From the IMG/VR virus record IMGVR_UViG_3300044641_009551, positions 1-20,126 of that record: a stretch of DNA of 20,126 nt, one strand, 5' to 3'. Positions within the stretch are counted from its first letter, which is position 1. The number at the start of each line of letters is the position of its first letter. Under the pieces are notes generated by a model. It saw only the letters and a list, made by a program, of their open reading frames with translations. It made no database searches and was not told the origin of the DNA. This document shows, one piece after another, positions 2,190-20,126 of the stretch. The translations under genes were made by a program, and so were the position numbers. Source of the stretch: a virus.

Positions 2190-2777
2190 CTATCCGAGCA
2201 TGGCCCTCCTCACCGCTGTCTGGAGGAGAAGGGTGAGCTGGCGATCGTCGCCGATGTAGAAGCGGTTCTCCTCGAGGCCGTAGCCGTATGCAGTCTGGAT
2301 GGCGATCCACTCGTGCATTGACAGGCTGATGCCGTAGTTGCTGAGGACGTACAGCGACCTCGCGCTGTGGGTCATCTTGGGCAGCGCCTCGTTGTACTTG
2401 TAGTTTTTCCCGAGCTTGTCTCTACGCCATGAGTCTGTCTCGGGCAGGTAGTACGGAATCCTCCGATCGGGTGCCGGGTCGCCCACACGGCCAATGTCGT
2501 GGAAGAGCGCGACCTTGATGATGGACTCCGGCGACTCATCGGGCGCGAGAATCGGGGCCAGCTTCCGCGCGTGGCTTGTGACCGAGACCATGTGAGCCAT
2601 TAGGCCGCCGGGCCCATCGAAGCTCCTGTCGTCTCGATCCGACGCCGGGCACATGAACAGCATGTCTCCCAGGTCGTCGATCATGAACTTGATGCGCTGA
2701 TACGTCTCCTCGTCGTAGGTCACCTGTGTGATCCTGACAACGTTGTCGTAGAGCCGCTTGATCTCTTCAGGGGTCAC
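2190..2777 (-). CDS. HD-domain phosphohydrolase-like protein (195 aa)
   Basis: A compact all-helical HD-domain protein of a type common in large phages. HD proteins usually hydrolyse phosphate esters of nucleotides using metal bound by H...HD...D. Seen: His62 (LMAHMVSV), the His93-Asp94 doublet in ALFHDIGRVGD, then PYYLPETDSWRRDKLGKNY and KMTHSARSLYVLSNYGI (His137), the order found in phage HD proteins. Where relatives usually have a final metal-binding Asp (a LLH-x-AD type motif), this protein reads LLLQTAVRR, with Val189 at the expected place, so catalysis may be altered or lost. The start is GTG at 2777, overlapping the polymerase-like gene's TGA by four bases (GTGA), with AAGGAGG seven bases upstream: clear translational coupling. 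The substrate is unknown. Nucleotide metabolism is inferred from family and neighbour. Confidence 0.75.
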   Translation of the reverse strand: MTPEEIKRLYDNVVRITQVTYDEETYQRIKFMIDDLGDMLFMCPASDRDDRSFDGPGGLMAHMVSVTSHARKLAPILAPDESPESIIKVALFHDIGRVGDPAPDRRIPYYLPETDSWRRDKLGKNYKYNEALPKMTHSARSLYVLSNYGISLSMHEWIAIQTAYGYGLEENRFYIGDDRQLTLLLQTAVRRAMLG

Positions 2778-3979
2778 TCGGTCACCTCCTTAACCTTAGC
2801 GCGAATGGATCCTGGGAACGCGTCGCCGAACCTGACAGGCTGCTCGCAGATCTCTCGCAGATTGTCCTCGTGGCGCTCAGAGATTTCAAGCACAGCAGCG
2901 TCGTGGATGAAGTACAGAAACCGCACGGGGATGAGGCAGGAGGCGAGCTCATCCGCGATCCTGCGGAATCCCATCATTCCGACGTCGTGCGCCGTGCTCT
3001 GCACGTAGTTGTTGACCAGCGTGCCCGGGGCGGAGCTTGTGGGCCTGATCTTTCGGCCGAAGTGTGACCTGATGATGCCCTTGTCCCTGTGCTCTGCGAC
3101 CAGCCTGCGCTCGAGTCCCTGCAGGCCGAAGTGGGACCGCACGCTCTCAGAGATCACCCTCGCCTCGACGATCGTGCTGTCGAGCTTCTCGGAGAGGGTG
3201 CCCGAAGACATGCCGTACAGCGTTCCGATGATTGCGAGCTTGGCCACGTCGCGGGTGATGGTCGGCATCATCTCGTCCCTGTACCAGCCGTAGATGTCCT
3301 CGGGCGGGTCGACACCCGCCATGCAGAGGGCGACGCGAGGCTCGTGCGAGACGAAGTCGACCATGACAACTCGCCTCCCGCGCCTGCTCGGGACGATGAC
3401 ACGTCGCATGTCCTTGCGAAGGGTGAGGATCTGCGGCCCCGCTGTGACCGTGAGGCGACCGGTCACTGATGCGACCTGATCGTAGGTGGGCGGCCTCACC
3501 ATCCCCGAGTCGTCCGGCTCGAAGGACTCAAGGGCGGGTGACGGATCCTCGCGCATTATCTCGGCCCAGGCGGCTGGATCCACGCGGCCCTCGCTGAGCT
3601 CACACAGCTGACGCCGAGCCTCGAGGGCGTGCTGGATGATGTATGGATCGGTCGCTAGCTCCTCGAGGGAATGCGCGTCCCGCAGCACATCGCGGACGTG
3701 AGCTAGCAGGTGCACCTGGGGCACTGTGAGGATGTGCTTGCCGCCATCGACTCCCGCGATCTCGTCTGCCCTGAGGAAGCGCTCGGGAATGGGCGGGATC
3801 TCGGATCCCGCGAGTGTTGCGAGGAATCGCAGGTCCCTAGTGTGCCGCACATCAGGTGCGCTCAGCATCCATGCGTCCTCGGGCGGCGAGCTGGACCACC
3901 GCCACGGAACGCTGGCGTCCGTGTCGCAGACCAGATGAAGATCAGACCCCAGGTAGCTCTTGTGCAGGCAGACTCTCAT
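2774..3979 (-). CDS. Reduced family A DNA polymerase-like protein (401 aa)
   Basis: The C-terminal half carries the family A (Pol I) polymerase motifs in order: TGRL at 173-176, motif A VDFVSHEPR with Asp208, an O-helix (motif B) TRDVAKLAIIGTLYGMS with Arg243, Lys247, Tyr255 and Gly256, a NNYVQSTAHD segment (Gln327), and motif C FIHDAAVLE with His359 and Asp360. The two metal-binding aspartates are kept, but the usual HDE of motif C is HDA, and the O-helix Phe is Ile251. Spacing from motif A to motif B is 35 residues against about 49 in E. coli Pol I, so the fingers are shortened. About 170 residues precede TGRL and show no recognisable 3'-5' exonuclease motifs. At 401 aa it is much smaller than Klenow fragment. 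It could be an active small polymerase, a second subunit, or a degenerate protein. It is coupled to the HD gene. No strong Shine-Dalgarno was found at its ATG. Confidence 0.75.
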   Translation of the reverse strand: MRVCLHKSYLGSDLHLVCDTDASVPWRWSSSPPEDAWMLSAPDVRHTRDLRFLATLAGSEIPPIPERFLRADEIAGVDGGKHILTVPQVHLLAHVRDVLRDAHSLEELATDPYIIQHALEARRQLCELSEGRVDPAAWAEIMREDPSPALESFEPDDSGMVRPPTYDQVASVTGRLTVTAGPQILTLRKDMRRVIVPSRRGRRVVMVDFVSHEPRVALCMAGVDPPEDIYGWYRDEMMPTITRDVAKLAIIGTLYGMSSGTLSEKLDSTIVEARVISESVRSHFGLQGLERRLVAEHRDKGIIRSHFGRKIRPTSSAPGTLVNNYVQSTAHDVGMMGFRRIADELASCLIPVRFLYFIHDAAVLEISERHEDNLREICEQPVRFGDAFPGSIRAKVKEVTE

Positions 3980-12698: not shown

Positions 12699-12947
12699 TC
12701 AGAAGCTGCGCGACAGCTTTCCGAGACGACTCTCGAGCGTGCTGGCGGCAGCCTCAGCCTGGCTCTGCGCGGACGCGGACTTCCTCTGGTTCGCCTTTGC
12801 CTCGTCCACCTCACGGATGTACCGCTTGATGAACCAGTTGCGATACATGACGGGCATCTCACGAACCTCCCCGTAGGAGATCGGAATGCGTCGCATCAGG
12901 AAGTAGAAATCTTCGAGAATCCGCTCTCGATCACTCGGCGTCAGGCC
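12699..12947 (-). CDS. Frameshifted extension of the gp26-like gene (gp51/tail-chaperone-like), 82 codons
   Basis: A second frame, +1 relative to the gp26-like gene, is open from 13007 to a stop at 12699. Between its last upstream stop (13010-13008) and an ATG at 12896 there is no ATG, GTG or TTG, and that ATG has no Shine-Dalgarno. Yet the sequence before the ATG looks coding and continuous with it: GLTPSDRERILEDFYFL then MRRIPISYGEVREMP and YRNWFIKRYI. The short acidic/aromatic segment followed by a proline-turn and W-F-x-K-R is the style of T extensions in G/GT tail chaperones and of small gp51-type proteins. Translation from the ATG alone would give 65 aa; frameshifting inside 12963-12946 would give a fusion of about 358 aa. 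Position just before the tape gene supports a chaperone. The frameshift is inferred. Confidence 0.6.
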   Translation of the reverse strand, partial: GLTPSDRERILEDFYFLMRRIPISYGEVREMPVMYRNWFIKRYIREVDEAKANQRKSASAQSQAEAAASTLESRLGKLSRSF

Positions 12948-13776
12948 AAAGAAAGGAGGGACCGATGGGCATGTCGACCCTGCTCGCCTCCCCGCACGAT
13001 GTGCAAGTCATGTCGCACGTCATGTCGATTCCTGGCTCAATCTTCTTGATCCTGTTGCGCAGGGTGCGCGCGTCACGAGCGGGCATGTTCTTGACGAACA
13101 TGCCGATCTTCGTGCGATCGGTCACGTCTCCCACAGACACAATGGACTTCTCGAGGAACGCGGTGACGCCCGACTCAGGGGCGTCCGGAAGGACTGCGCG
13201 CATCTTGGCGTTCTGCGCGTTGATGTCCTCCTGGTCCCTCCCCGTCAGGATCTTGAAGGTGACGCGCTTCTTGGTCACCGGGAGGTCGATCGCGAAGGCG
13301 TTCTCGCCCGGCACCGCGGGCTCCTCCTCGAGTCGCTTGATGCTGAGGGACCCGAGGTCGAATGTGTAGGGACCGCGCTGGCCGCACTTCTCGCAGGTCG
13401 CCTCGACGCGATACTCGCTGCCGTAGCCAGTGATCCTGATGGAGATCATCAGGGCGTTCCTGTCGCCCGCGATCAGCTCGGAGGGATCTCCGCCCTTGTC
13501 GACCATGCAGGACCTGATCAGCTCGTTGATGATCGTCCCCTTCTTCATGAGGGCGCGGGACGTGAGGATGTCCTCCTCACGAGCTGTCATGGCCCTAATC
13601 TCGATCGTCTCCCTTCCATGGAAGAAGCTGCCCTTCGGGTAGACCGCTCCTCGCGATGGGAGAGGAACTGACTCGACAGGAACCTCCCATCCAAAGTCGT
13701 CCCGCATGACATCCCTGCGGGGCATTGCTGGGTGGACTGCTTGCTGCGTGAAGATCTCGTTGTTGTCGCGGCTCAT
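12931..13776 (-). CDS. 26: T4 gp26-like baseplate hub assembly protein with four-cysteine zinc site (281 aa)
   Basis: It resembles the T4 baseplate gp26 family (T4_baseplate). Hallmarks in order: VPLPSRGAVYPKGSFF (37-52), IEIRAMTAREEDILTSRALM (58-77), a conserved helix with LIRSCM, GDRNALMISIRITGYGSEY (104-122), then CEKCG (Cys128, Cys131) and a C-terminal CTSCG (Cys258, Cys261, with Cys254 nearby). The two CxxC pairs look like a zinc ribbon closing the fold. The protein acts in hub assembly in T4 and does not stay in the final particle in all accounts. It is encoded between the J-like gene and the tape-measure-like gene, 25 bases after the former. No Shine-Dalgarno is visible at the ATG. The last codons overlap an extension frame, described separately. 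Confidence 0.8.
   Translation of the reverse strand: MSRDNNEIFTQQAVHPAMPRRDVMRDDFGWEVPVESVPLPSRGAVYPKGSFFHGRETIEIRAMTAREEDILTSRALMKKGTIINELIRSCMVDKGGDPSELIAGDRNALMISIRITGYGSEYRVEATCEKCGQRGPYTFDLGSLSIKRLEEEPAVPGENAFAIDLPVTKKRVTFKILTGRDQEDINAQNAKMRAVLPDAPESGVTAFLEKSIVSVGDVTDRTKIGMFVKNMPARDARTLRNRIKKIEPGIDMTCDMTCTSCGEASRVDMPIGPSFLWPDAE
12946..12963 (-). promoter_or_regulatory. Candidate +1 frameshift window near the end of the gp26-like gene
   Basis: The mRNA reads GGT CCC TCC TTT CTT TGG in the gp26-like frame. CTT-T is the same P-site tetranucleotide used in the bacterial prfB +1 shift (there followed by GA), and here the slow single-codon TGG follows. CCC-T and TTT-C also allow re-pairing after a one-base slip. 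Any of these would join the extension frame. No upstream Shine-Dalgarno stimulator as in prfB is seen. The exact site cannot be fixed by inspection. Confidence 0.4.
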
Positions 13777-13801: not shown

Positions 13802-15208
13802 CTACAGGTCCTCGCCGGACGTCCTGGTTCTCACAACATCAAAAAGTGTGGTGACGGCGTCCTGCAGCTCCTGGAGGTGCTGGTAGACGACGGGCGAATT
13901 GATGGCTGACGCGGTGACTGCGCTGTCAAGCTGCTCGACTGCGTCCATGACCGTCTCCTCCATCTGGTCAATCTCCTCGGGAGACAGGGTCGGCTCCGCC
14001 GGGGGAGAAGGCTCGGGCTCCTCGGATCTGCTGGGTGACCCATACGCGCCCGTGAGGATGCTGTAAACAGCCATGGGATTGTCATCTTCGTCTCCGGCCA
14101 ACAGGGCAGAGAAGTCGAGCTCAGGTTCGGCAGCCTCACGCATTCGAGATGGACCGCTGCGCACATTGCGTGCAATTTCATCGGCAAGCGACCTGACGAT
14201 CTGGACGTAGTCATCGACCTCACGCCTCGCAGCATCGCTCAGGTCGATGCCCCGCAGGACATCGAGAGACGCCTTGACAGCGTTCGCAGCGTCGCGAACG
14301 CTTCGGGCCGAGGCGCCCGCATCGCTTGCGCGCGATGAGGAGCGCTCAATGTAGGGGGTCTCTTCGCTCTCGAGTGAGCGACTCCGCGGCGTCACAATTG
14401 CGCTGACAAGCGACATTGGGAAGAAGTCCTCTTCATACTGGGCCGATCCTGCGTACATGGCAGAGAGGGGCCAGGTGCTCAGCATGAGCATCTTCTCAAT
14501 CTTGCTGAGGATCTGCTGCTCCTCGTCCGGACTTCTTCCCTGCCTCCTCATGACCCTGCGTGCGGCCGCAGCAGCCATGATCTGGGGCCTGCCGCTCTCA
14601 AGCTCCTCCCTGTAAGCGCCGAGGACCTCCATGTCGTCCTCGTTGTTGAAGTCTGGGTCGTCGTGCGCGAAACCCACCTGGAAGGCGCGTGCCAGGGAGG
14701 AGATCGTCGGATACTTCCTTCTGAGGAGCTCAAGATCGTTCTTGTCGGGCTCTGTGCCGAGAACATCGGCAGGAAGAGCGACGGCAGTGCCCCTCTCAGC
14801 TGGGAGAGGCAGCCCCTCGTCGTAGAGCCTGCGCAGATCCGCGCTCAGGAGGATCTTCGCAGCGTCCTGGACCTTGCTGCGCATCACTGCGGCTGAGGCT
14901 GTCGGGTTGACGTTAGGGTTCAGGCCCATCATCAGGTTGTTGTATGCCTGATCTATCTGCTGACGAGACGCCGTCCTGCTGACTCCGAGCACCTCGTAGT
15001 AGTCCTCAGAGGCGCTTCCCACAAGCCTTCTGCCCACCACAGTCGTGTATCTGTCAAGGGAGGATGGGATCGTCCTCCCAGTCCTCTCCTCCAGCTCCAG
15101 AAGCAGCTGGCGCGCGTGGACGGCGAGAGCAAGCTTCCTGGGCGTGACGCTTGGTCTGGACTGTGCCTCGCTCAGGATCCTGCGAACAATGCTGCTGAGT
15201 GAGATCAT
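13802..15208 (-). CDS. J-domain-like protein without HPD, tail cluster (468 aa)
   Basis: Residues about 68-131 resemble a DnaJ J-domain: EDYYEVLGVSRTASRQQI, then a helix with QAYNNLMMG, LNPN in the loop, and AAKILLSADLRRLYDEGLPL. The usual D-Y-Y-x-x-L-G-V opening, the AY helix and the L-x-D-x-x-R-x-x-YD ending are all there, but the HPD tripeptide that stimulates Hsp70 is Asn97-Pro98-Asn99. It therefore probably keeps a J-type fold for binding a partner without activating DnaK. The N-terminal 60 residues are helical. The remainder is charged and helical (residues about 150-350), with a Pro/Glu-rich linker (SEEPEPSPPAEPTLSPEE) and a helical tail. AGAGGAAAGG precedes the ATG. It sits between tail tube and gp26-like gene, so a scaffold or chaperone role is inferred. 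Structural protein is the alternative. Confidence 0.6.
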   Translation of the reverse strand: MISLSSIVRRILSEAQSRPSVTPRKLALAVHARQLLLELEERTGRTIPSSLDRYTTVVGRRLVGSASEDYYEVLGVSRTASRQQIDQAYNNLMMGLNPNVNPTASAAVMRSKVQDAAKILLSADLRRLYDEGLPLPAERGTAVALPADVLGTEPDKNDLELLRRKYPTISSLARAFQVGFAHDDPDFNNEDDMEVLGAYREELESGRPQIMAAAAARRVMRRQGRSPDEEQQILSKIEKMLMLSTWPLSAMYAGSAQYEEDFFPMSLVSAIVTPRSRSLESEETPYIERSSSRASDAGASARSVRDAANAVKASLDVLRGIDLSDAARREVDDYVQIVRSLADEIARNVRSGPSRMREAAEPELDFSALLAGDEDDNPMAVYSILTGAYGSPSRSEEPEPSPPAEPTLSPEEIDQMEETVMDAVEQLDSAVTASAINSPVVYQHLQELQDAVTTLFDVVRTRTSGEDL

Positions 15209-15290: not shown

Positions 15291-15782
15291 TCAGTACTGG
15301 AGGACGCAGTTGTCGAAGCGAACCGTGAGCTGAATGTCCATGGTCGCGCTGTCGTCCGAGTAGTCGAGGTTCCCGTAGCGGGCGTCCGTGAGGAACGCGC
15401 CCTTGATGTCCCAGAGCTCGACGACGGTGCCGACCGGATCGAGAAGCTTCAGCTGGATGTCACGCTTGTAGAAGTCAGCGTAGCCCGCGCGGCCTGAGAC
15501 TGACTCATAGTGCGTGCGGATCCACTCCATGACCTGCTGCGCGCCCGAGGGGGCGATGGGATCGTGCAGGGTCATGCTGATCGTGGAGAACTCGAGGCGG
15601 CCAGCGATGTAGCGCTTCGCGTTGATGAAGGGAATCATCTCCTCACGGATTGTGAAGGTCGGACGGTCGGTCGACTTCACAAGAAACGCGTCAATGCCCT
15701 CGCACATGAGGACCCATCGAAACCGGCGCTTCGGCTCGAACTTGTTGGGAAGCATTTCCGTGACGGAAAGTGTCTCAGCCAT
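15291..15782 (-). CDS. 19: Tail tube protein, T4 gp19-type (163 aa)
   Basis: Forms the stacked hexameric rings of the inner tail tube through which DNA passes. Length equals T4 gp19 (163 aa). Family features: N-terminal strand FRWVLMCEGIDAFLVKSTDR, PTFTIREEMIPFINAKRYIAG, a strand with FSTISMTLHDPIAPSGAQQV, helix MEWIRTHYESV with RAGYADFYKRD, and the strand DPVGTVVELWDIKGAFLTDA ending in DIQLTVRFDNCVLQY. The start has AGAGAGGA eight bases upstream. It follows the long sheath gene by 28 bases, the standard gp18-gp19 order, and is followed by a strong terminator, consistent with the high copy number of both proteins. Confidence 0.93.
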   Translation of the reverse strand: MAETLSVTEMLPNKFEPKRRFRWVLMCEGIDAFLVKSTDRPTFTIREEMIPFINAKRYIAGRLEFSTISMTLHDPIAPSGAQQVMEWIRTHYESVSGRAGYADFYKRDIQLKLLDPVGTVVELWDIKGAFLTDARYGNLDYSDDSATMDIQLTVRFDNCVLQY

Positions 15783-18893: not shown

Positions 18894-20126
18894 TCAGAAG
18901 CTCACCCCCGCGTTGGTCACCACGAAGTCGATCGCGATGAACTCAACGGTGCGTGTGGGCACGATGACAATTCTGCCGTTCAGGCGATTGCTCTCGACGT
19001 CCGCCTCAGTGTTGTTGCGGGAGTCCATGATCACATCGAACGAGTCGATGCCCTGCTGAGACTGGATGATCGCCAGCTGTGGCTTGACAGCGTCCACGAA
19101 CCTCGCGCGGGTGGCGGGAGTGTTCTGCTCGAAGACGATGCCGCGGGCGATGCCCTCGACGATGCGCTTCACCTCGAGGAGGAGGCGACGCACATTGAGC
19201 CTGTCGAGAGAGCTCTTTGTCACCTGGAGCGTCTTCTGGCCGAAGATGACGAACCCAACATCTGGAAGACGCGCGATCGGGTTGATGCGCGCGACGTAGA
19301 GGTTGTCCCTGTCAGCGGAGTTGAGGCGGACCTGCGTGTTGTTGACGAAGGACAGGGCGCCGCGGCTGAATCCCGCTGGGGCGTACCAGGGGTAGGCCAC
19401 GGTGTCGCTGTAGGCGATGCCTCCCATCGCGGCGACCGAGGCAGGAACCTGGACGCGGCGGCCCGTGATCGTGTCGGTGATCGTCACATCAGGGAAGTAT
19501 GTCGCCGTGTAGTTGTTGTCGATCGCCCGCGCAGAAAACTGATCGCAGGTGGACTGCACATCAGGGCGCCTGCCGTCTCGGGCGAAGACGCGGATCGTGT
19601 CCTCGGTGTAGGAGGGGATGTCAGCGACGTAAGCGGCCTTGCCGTACTCCTTGACCTTCCTCGCGGCGTGGTCCGTGATCAGGGACTCCCTCATGTCCGG
19701 AAGGGCGAGGAGGTTGATCCTGGAGGTGGCCGTGTCGGCGATGATGTCGACCGCAGTCCTGAAGGAGTTGACGCCGTTGTTCTGAAGCGCGACGCCCGAG
19801 GGATTGCTGATGCCGATGTCAACGGTGTTGAGCGCCTTTCCGCCTACCTCAGCCGAGGTGGAGCGGTCGCTCAGCACGGCAGCGTCCCTGTCGAGGATGT
19901 TGACGCCGTCGAAGCCTCCGTAGAGGAAGGTGGTGTACTTGGCGTACCCGCTGAACCGGTTGAAGTACGTGGAGCTGGTGAGGGCGAGCACCGAGGCGAG
20001 GGTGATTCGGCTGTAGTTCGCCTCCTGGGGATCGACTATCGTGTAGTCGGTCGTGTCGGGCACGCCGTTCCTGATGTACGCCGCCCCGCGCATGTGCTCA
20101 TCAGCTGTGCCGGTGAGCGCGTTCAC
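18894..20126 (-). CDS. Second tail sheath protein, C-terminal 410 residues (5' end beyond window)
   Basis: A paralogue of the neighbouring long sheath protein, cut by the window edge. The first visible codon is GTG at the border and is most likely internal. Shared landmarks are GGFDGVNILDRDAAVL, ATYFPDVTITDT, WYAPAGFSRGAL, ARINPIARLP, GFVIFGQKTLQVT, SSLDRLNVRRLLLEVKR and the ending PTRTVEFIAIDFVVTNAG. Divergence is large in the surface loops and high conservation is kept in the ring-contact C-terminus, so both copies look functional. It lies upstream of the long copy and the tube gene in the same direction. Which copy builds the main sheath, or whether both mix, cannot be read from sequence. 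Confidence 0.88.
   Translation of the reverse strand: MNALTGTADEHMRGAAYIRNGVPDTTDYTIVDPQEANYSRITLASVLALTSSTYFNRFSGYAKYTTFLYGGFDGVNILDRDAAVLSDRSTSAEVGGKALNTVDIGISNPSGVALQNNGVNSFRTAVDIIADTATSRINLLALPDMRESLITDHAARKVKEYGKAAYVADIPSYTEDTIRVFARDGRRPDVQSTCDQFSARAIDNNYTATYFPDVTITDTITGRRVQVPASVAAMGGIAYSDTVAYPWYAPAGFSRGALSFVNNTQVRLNSADRDNLYVARINPIARLPDVGFVIFGQKTLQVTKSSLDRLNVRRLLLEVKRIVEGIARGIVFEQNTPATRARFVDAVKPQLAIIQSQQGIDSFDVIMDSRNNTEADVESNRLNGRIVIVPTRTVEFIAIDFVVTNAGVSF

Follow-up and report, generated by a model that had tools for sequence, protein, structure and literature searches.

A probable +1 frameshift at CUU-U extends a gp26-like protein of contractile-tailed phages and may produce a two-length tail assembly chaperone

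The window analyzed here is a virus sequence of 20,126 bases (IMG/VR record IMGVR_UViG_3300044641_009551) whose minus strand carries a contractile-tail module that also includes baseplate-type genes; neither Rfam families nor tRNAs were found in the window. Within this module, a gp26-like gene and the extension that follows it sit between the tail tube gene, which lies upstream with one J-domain ORF intervening, and a long downstream ORF (Table 1). Pfam and PHROG profile searches gave no significant family match for the long ORF, which is called a probable tape measure from its position; in the phages immuto and LIS04, the gene order around the chaperone locus is the same and the annotated tape measure occupies that place. 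The intervening ORF encodes a J-domain (DnaJ) protein of 468 aa (13802-15208, minus strand; PF00226, 2.7e-12) between the tail tube and the chaperone gene in the tail operon. Two tail sheath ORFs are arranged in tandem, the second at 18894-20126 (minus strand), and the 1013-aa sheath protein is unusually long. Beside the tail genes, a family A DNA polymerase fragment (401 aa; 2774-3979, minus strand; PF00476, 2.4e-13) adjoins an HD-domain protein (2190-2777).

Table 1. Features of the chaperone locus and the neighboring tail genes in the window
Feature	Coordinates	Strand	Remarks
gp26-like gene (putative TAC-N)	12931..13776	-	zero frame, 281 aa; stop TGA 12931-12933
+1-frame extension (T domain)	12699..12947	-	82 aa from GGC 12947, plus stop TGA 12699-12701
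Putative slip tetranucleotide CTTT	12948..12951	-	zero-frame P codon CTT 12951-12949 and first base of TGG
Zero-frame A-site codon TGG (Trp)	12946..12948	-	TGG in 138/141 relatives
E-site codon TTT	12952..12954	-	TTT 135/141, TTC 6/141
Internal ATG chosen by ORF callers	12894..12896	-	start not conserved (GTC in L018)
GGGGAGG, anti-Shine-Dalgarno complement	12987..12993	-	GGAGG end 35 nt from P codon
AGGGT, weaker anti-Shine-Dalgarno complement	12977..12981	-	near register of GGAGG in most relatives
Probable tape-measure protein, 688 aa	10595..12661	-	position only
Tail tube protein	15291..15782	-	phrog_4542, 1.9e-27
Tail sheath protein, 1013 aa	15811..18852	-	PF04984, 5e-9; PF17482, 5e-8

Between its stops at 13008-13010 and 12699-12701, the +1 frame is open (13007 to 12702), and a frame scan confirmed that it crosses the gp26-like stop with no ATG, GTG or TTG ahead of the ATG at 12894-12896. 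That ATG has no Shine-Dalgarno sequence ahead of it (GATTTCTACTTCCTG precedes the ATG), which is also as the sequence-only reading had described it; every checkable detail of what that reading observed at the locus proved correct. The junction letters are TCC TTT CTT TGG CCT GAC: with CTT in the P site, the T at 12948 would be skipped and +1 reading would resume at GGC (12947-12945). A slip of the prfB type requires CUU or UUU followed by U, and this arrangement is present. The L023 version of the junction region is TTTTTTTGG.

The gp26-like protein is a member of a recognized family: its residues 54-268 match PF12322 (T4_baseplate) at 1e-16, with 61.7 bits against a curated cutoff of 24.5, and it also matches phrog_150 ("baseplate hub") at 5e-22. 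Relatives were initially collected with a +1 peptide query that included the junction pattern FFGLTPSD, and in all 58 loci found in this way the extension was +1 after the gp26-like ORF. Because this query contained the junction, the scan was redone with a junction-free gp26 query, an alignment of 29 gp26-like proteins without their C terminus. This repeat scan of viral and genome contigs yielded 94 loci, 2 of which ran off the contig, and the extension was in the +1 frame in 92 of the 92 testable loci. The full comparison set consisted of 141 nonredundant sequences, and the unbiased subset consisted of 90. The median open run past the gp26 stop was 81 codons in the +1 frame, 11 codons in the -1 frame and 3 codons in frame 0. 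Judged from these alignments, a forward slip of one base near the end of the gene is almost certainly needed to make the longer protein, both in the window and in the 92 relatives.

The proposed slip site is nearly invariant. The slip codon and the next base are [U/C]UU followed by U or C in 140/141 sequences and nearly always read [U/C]UU-UGG-CC; the P codon is TTT in 122 and CTT in 18, which bears out the earlier proposal of CTT-T as the slip. In the unbiased subset, the P codon is TTT in 80/90 and CTT in 10/90, and the A codon is TGG in 88/90. All 122 Phe P codons are TTT, although at their other Phe positions these genes use TTT for 69% and TTC for 31% (P = 1e-20); of the 19 Leu P codons, 18 are CTT, a codon that makes up 28% of Leu codons elsewhere in them. 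The P values take no account of relatedness. There was no link between the slip codon and GC content (P = 0.2). Third-base constraint is strong at the slip, and most other third positions of the alignment carry little information. Information content tracks the gp26 codon positions upstream of the slip and the extension codon positions downstream of it, so that the three-base periodicity of conservation switches phase across the site. In several relatives (L061, L070, L118, L124, L128, L131, L164 and L167), the +1 frame has a stop three codons ahead of GGC, and in L128, L131 and others the gp26 stop lies four codons past the P codon. In L128 and L131, the two stops therefore confine the shift to about five codons, and the sole slippery place within that interval is TTT-T.

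The extension is annotated by ORF callers and in GenBank records (immuto, SP-15) as a separate small gene, which would begin at ATG 12896 or another start and would perhaps be coupled translationally to the gp26 stop; a start codon does occur close to this position in many relatives. The codons ahead of the ATG speak against this explanation. Extension codons 6-17 are located around or beyond the gp26 stop but still ahead of the usual internal Met, and single-base codon changes between relatives in this interval were 1045 synonymous versus 373 nonsynonymous in the extension frame; the corresponding ratios in the remaining frames were 196:1569 and 188:1301. By this measure, the region before the internal ATG is under purifying selection in the extension frame alone, the outcome of a check that the sequence-only reading had itself proposed. 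The peptide that it took for real protein is conserved among relatives and is longer than first quoted (GLTPSDRERILEDFYFL). Of extension codons 1-17, 7 are identical between the window and its close relative L018, 7 differ synonymously and 3 are changed; codon 18, the ATG of the window, is GTC in L018. No start codon is found upstream in the extension frame in 73/141 relatives, and in 19/141 ATG, GTG and TTG are absent both upstream and before the conserved core. Furthermore, the ATG at 12896 lacks a Shine-Dalgarno sequence, and if the gene were separate, nothing would keep the third base of the slip codon fixed. The search for homologues whose small gene has its own start found one case, the distant phage LR756511 (L173), and none closer; in it, around position 2271, the T domain seems to be a separate ORF that starts within a TAATG where it overlaps the first gene. 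We consider a separate gene very improbable for the window. A sequencing error or a pseudogene that has split one gene has nothing in its favor beyond the split itself, and comparison contradicts it, since the identical split is present in 92/92 loci and in the genomes of isolated Flavobacterium, Microcystis, Bacillus, Listeria and Streptococcus phages; its likelihood is negligible.

Two further explanations accept a change of frame but attribute it to other events. A shift of -2 would give the same frame and one residue more, and re-pairing of this kind is also possible at TTTTTTT and TTTCTTT, the E codon being TTT in 135/141; however, in the six relatives with TTC-TTT (L092, L096, L118, L126, L156 and L169) the Phe tRNA would land on UCU, and in Streptomyces phage BRock (CTG-TTT-C) it would land on UGU. 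Re-pairing in the +1 direction is possible in nearly every variant, from CUU to UUU or from UUU to UUU and, in relatives that have C as the following base (L169, BRock, SP-15, GXN1 and L003), from UUU to UUC; the least clear case is Listeria phage LIS04 (TTT-A). The TTC-TTT-T sites are a perfect fit to +1 re-pairing and a poor fit to -2, which we regard as very unlikely. Transcriptional slippage, in which RNA polymerase slips on a T run and leaves an insertion or deletion in part of the mRNA, could draw on the run of seven T's in most relatives, but the longest T run is three where the slip codon is CTT (18/141, including the window, with TTTCTTT) and four in the five relatives with TTCTTTT. 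Runs of three or four T's, in the same gene and at the same place, are too short for such slippage, and we give it hardly any credence. On comparative evidence, an internal start at 12896, a -2 shift, transcriptional slippage and sequencing error have thus each been rejected or demoted.

From the comparison of relatives, we conclude that the extension is made as protein without a start of its own and that the join is +1 and is located at [U/C]UU-U. The proposal of a +1 frameshift joining a gp26-like protein to a chaperone-type extension was therefore essentially right (92/92 loci in +1, 140/141 slip codons). It is very probable that the products are the two lengths of a tail assembly chaperone, made by a +1 P-site slip at CUU-U. 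We infer that this is slippage of a single tRNA in the P site, and its efficiency and the chaperone role are likewise inferred. It can be envisioned that most ribosomes would read the gp26-like gene through to its TGA and produce TAC-N (281 aa); in a minority, peptidyl-tRNA-Leu on CUU (12951-12949), with UGG waiting in the A site, would re-pair one base downstream on UUU, and these slipped ribosomes would produce TAC-NC, of 358 aa. By analogy with lambda G/GT, TAC-N would coat the tape measure and the T domain would recruit tail-tube subunits.

Structural predictions are compatible with a chaperone-like N terminus. An AlphaFold2 model of the fused protein, built on a 38-row alignment, has a mean pLDDT of 86, with residues 21-270 mostly near or above 90 and a flexible junction (pLDDT 56-70); in the extension, a predicted helix of 16 residues is followed by a short and then a long one. 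Among 994 solved chains aligned, 2ob9, a tail assembly chaperone of HK97, ranked first (Z 5.6, rmsd 8.1 over 90 residues), followed by YqbN 3klu (Z 5.5, rmsd 3.8 over 87 residues), which we take to be a member of the chaperone family; both alignments fall within residues 13-122. Z scores below 8 are weak, but the two top-ranked chains are both tail proteins of phage type. The modeled N-terminal fold is thus weakly chaperone-like. A Foldseek search against the PDB found nothing significant, and a gp51 model did not retrieve 2ob9 or 3klu. Among the named best matches in a viral library were baseplate hub/gp26 proteins of the T4-like kind, including the one from SP-15. DUF6760 was matched by 26/54 extensions (E up to 0.1, best 2.6e-4) and phrog_634, to which the C-terminal half of T4 gp51 belongs, by 1/54 (L165, 4.7e-4), and the predicted helical C-terminal domain can be described as resembling DUF6760 and the T4 gp51 tail.

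The link to T4 gp26 and gp51 suggested by the sequence-only reading also holds, once refined in one respect. Both gp26 (208 aa) and gp51 (249 aa) are full-length PF12322 matches (215.6 and 177.5 bits, respectively), and gp51 has about 48 C-terminal residues beyond the match; therefore, the extension probably corresponds to the C-terminal tail of gp51 and not to gp51 itself. In a model of a close gp51 relative, this extra tail is predicted to consist of two helices with a short one between them, which is also the order in the +1 extension. HHalign placed the extension on the gp51 C terminus when the gp51 alignment was used, at a nonsignificant P of 0.078, and gave nothing useful with the single T4 gp51 sequence. 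In T4 (Straboviridae), then, gp51 resembles gp26 but carries an additional C-terminal segment; unlike the phages studied here, T4 encodes the two proteins in separate genes, on opposite strands, and needs no frameshift. The two forms that these phages obtain by frameshifting seem to have been retained in T4 through gene duplication. A different arrangement is seen in four jumbo phages, Pseudomonas phage Cassandra (L172), Atu_ph07 (L007), Erwinia phage pEa_SNUABM_19 (L174) and Salmonella phage Munch (L175), in which the extension is in the -1 frame. The heptamer T_TTT_TTC, a -1 site, precedes the extension in all four. The PF12322 family switches the direction of its shift, and its output is conserved while its route is not; the routes are +1 here, -1 at U_UUU_UUC in the jumbo phages and two genes in T4.

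A further element is present upstream of the slip. GGAGG occurs within the 60 nt before the slip in 114/141 loci, compared with 19 to 23 expected when synonymous codons are reshuffled, and it is near or below expectation in every other interval of the gene. Its register varies, with ends 26, 20, 29 or 35 nt before the P codon (about 20 to 40 nt upstream), and this enrichment at several registers indicates selection as a nucleotide element. Third bases are constrained from -33 onward (z of 5 to 14 for most codons, compared with about 0 to 4 further upstream). As a start signal for the extension, GGAGG was rejected: a start lies 3 to 12 nt downstream in 65/114 loci, and most of these starts are in the gp26 frame. 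The element is too far from the slip for the 3-nt spacing of prfB; no prfB-like Shine-Dalgarno sequence lies 3 nt ahead of the slip, and 122/141 have no Shine-Dalgarno match within 18 nt. No conserved RNA structure was found by RNAalifold in 57 to 58 diverse sequences (energy 0.0), and no stable RNA fold was found in the window (fold z of +0.36). One tentative reading, which we think possible although the balance is against it, is that PF12322 specifies a two-isoform gene with at least three routes, whose +1 route is driven by long-range pairing of GGAGG with the 16S rRNA tail 20 to 26 nt upstream of the slip codon; the spacing so proposed, on the same tentative footing, would lie outside the known frameshift-stimulating spacings.

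Nearly all long-tailed phages make their tail chaperones with a frameshift, mostly of -1, T4 being the named exception (2016 review, PMC5009743). That T4-like genes use a mechanism other than frameshifting is stated in the title of Vladimirov, Gautam and Davidson 2022 (cited in PMC12846349 and PMC10885494). The system is reminiscent of lambda G/GT (Xu, Hendrix and Duda 2004; PMC5009743), in which two isoforms arise by a shift near the 3' end, the C-terminal addition comes from the shifted frame and the gene is placed between the tail tube and tape measure genes. Unlike lambda, which shifts -1 on a heptamer, the phages studied here would shift +1 at [U/C]UU-UGG, and their N-terminal protein, 281 aa with CxxC motifs in the window, belongs to the T4_baseplate family and is not a relative of lambda G by sequence. 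The slip itself is shared with prfB, the release factor 2 gene, since CUU-U and, in a minority, UUU-U are natural prfB slip sites (PMC5009743, PMC12421855). However, the A site here holds UGG and not a UGA stop, there is no Shine-Dalgarno sequence 3 nt upstream and no autoregulation is implied; with neither an A-site stop nor a near Shine-Dalgarno sequence, the site resembles prfB at the slip without forming a prfB-type cassette. In yeast, the abundance of the Gly tRNA matters at the Ty1 site CUU_AGG_C (PMC5009743); GGC is the +1 codon after the slip here too, and UGG/GGC may by analogy have a parallel role.

Shifts of +1 have been suggested for the tail chaperones of HSTV-2 and HF1-like archaeal viruses, where they would also occur between the tail tube and tape measure genes (PMC5009743, PMC7230728). 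The HF1 group has TTT-CGC, as does BRock in the present set; these haloviruses differ in being archaeal viruses, represented by few sequences and having another motif. Listeria phage PSA likewise uses +1 shifts in a phage structural operon, but in the capsid and major tail genes rather than in chaperones, with a proline codon before the stop or a pseudoknot (PMC5009743). No report of a +1 motif in PF12322 genes was found in the literature searched, a scope outside which most subscription papers lay.

In conclusion, the frameshifted PF12322 family comprises a very large set of mostly metagenomic myoviruses, together with several isolates, that would combine the rare +1 direction with a near-invariant slip site. 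It accounts for misannotated small ORFs in many genomes; the GenBank records for Flavobacterium phage vB_FspM_immuto, Microcystis phage Mel-JY01 and SP-15 (L001, L002 and L005), for example, list the extension as a small hypothetical protein that is truncated or begins at the wrong place. Cultured isolates such as immuto and Mel-JY01 carry the same slip site as the window's relatives. As a natural library, the family offers over 140 +1 sites that lack an A-site stop codon, and the selected upstream GGAGG is a candidate new stimulator that would be cheap to test. These phages also make testable why the direction of the shift may vary while the two-isoform output stays.
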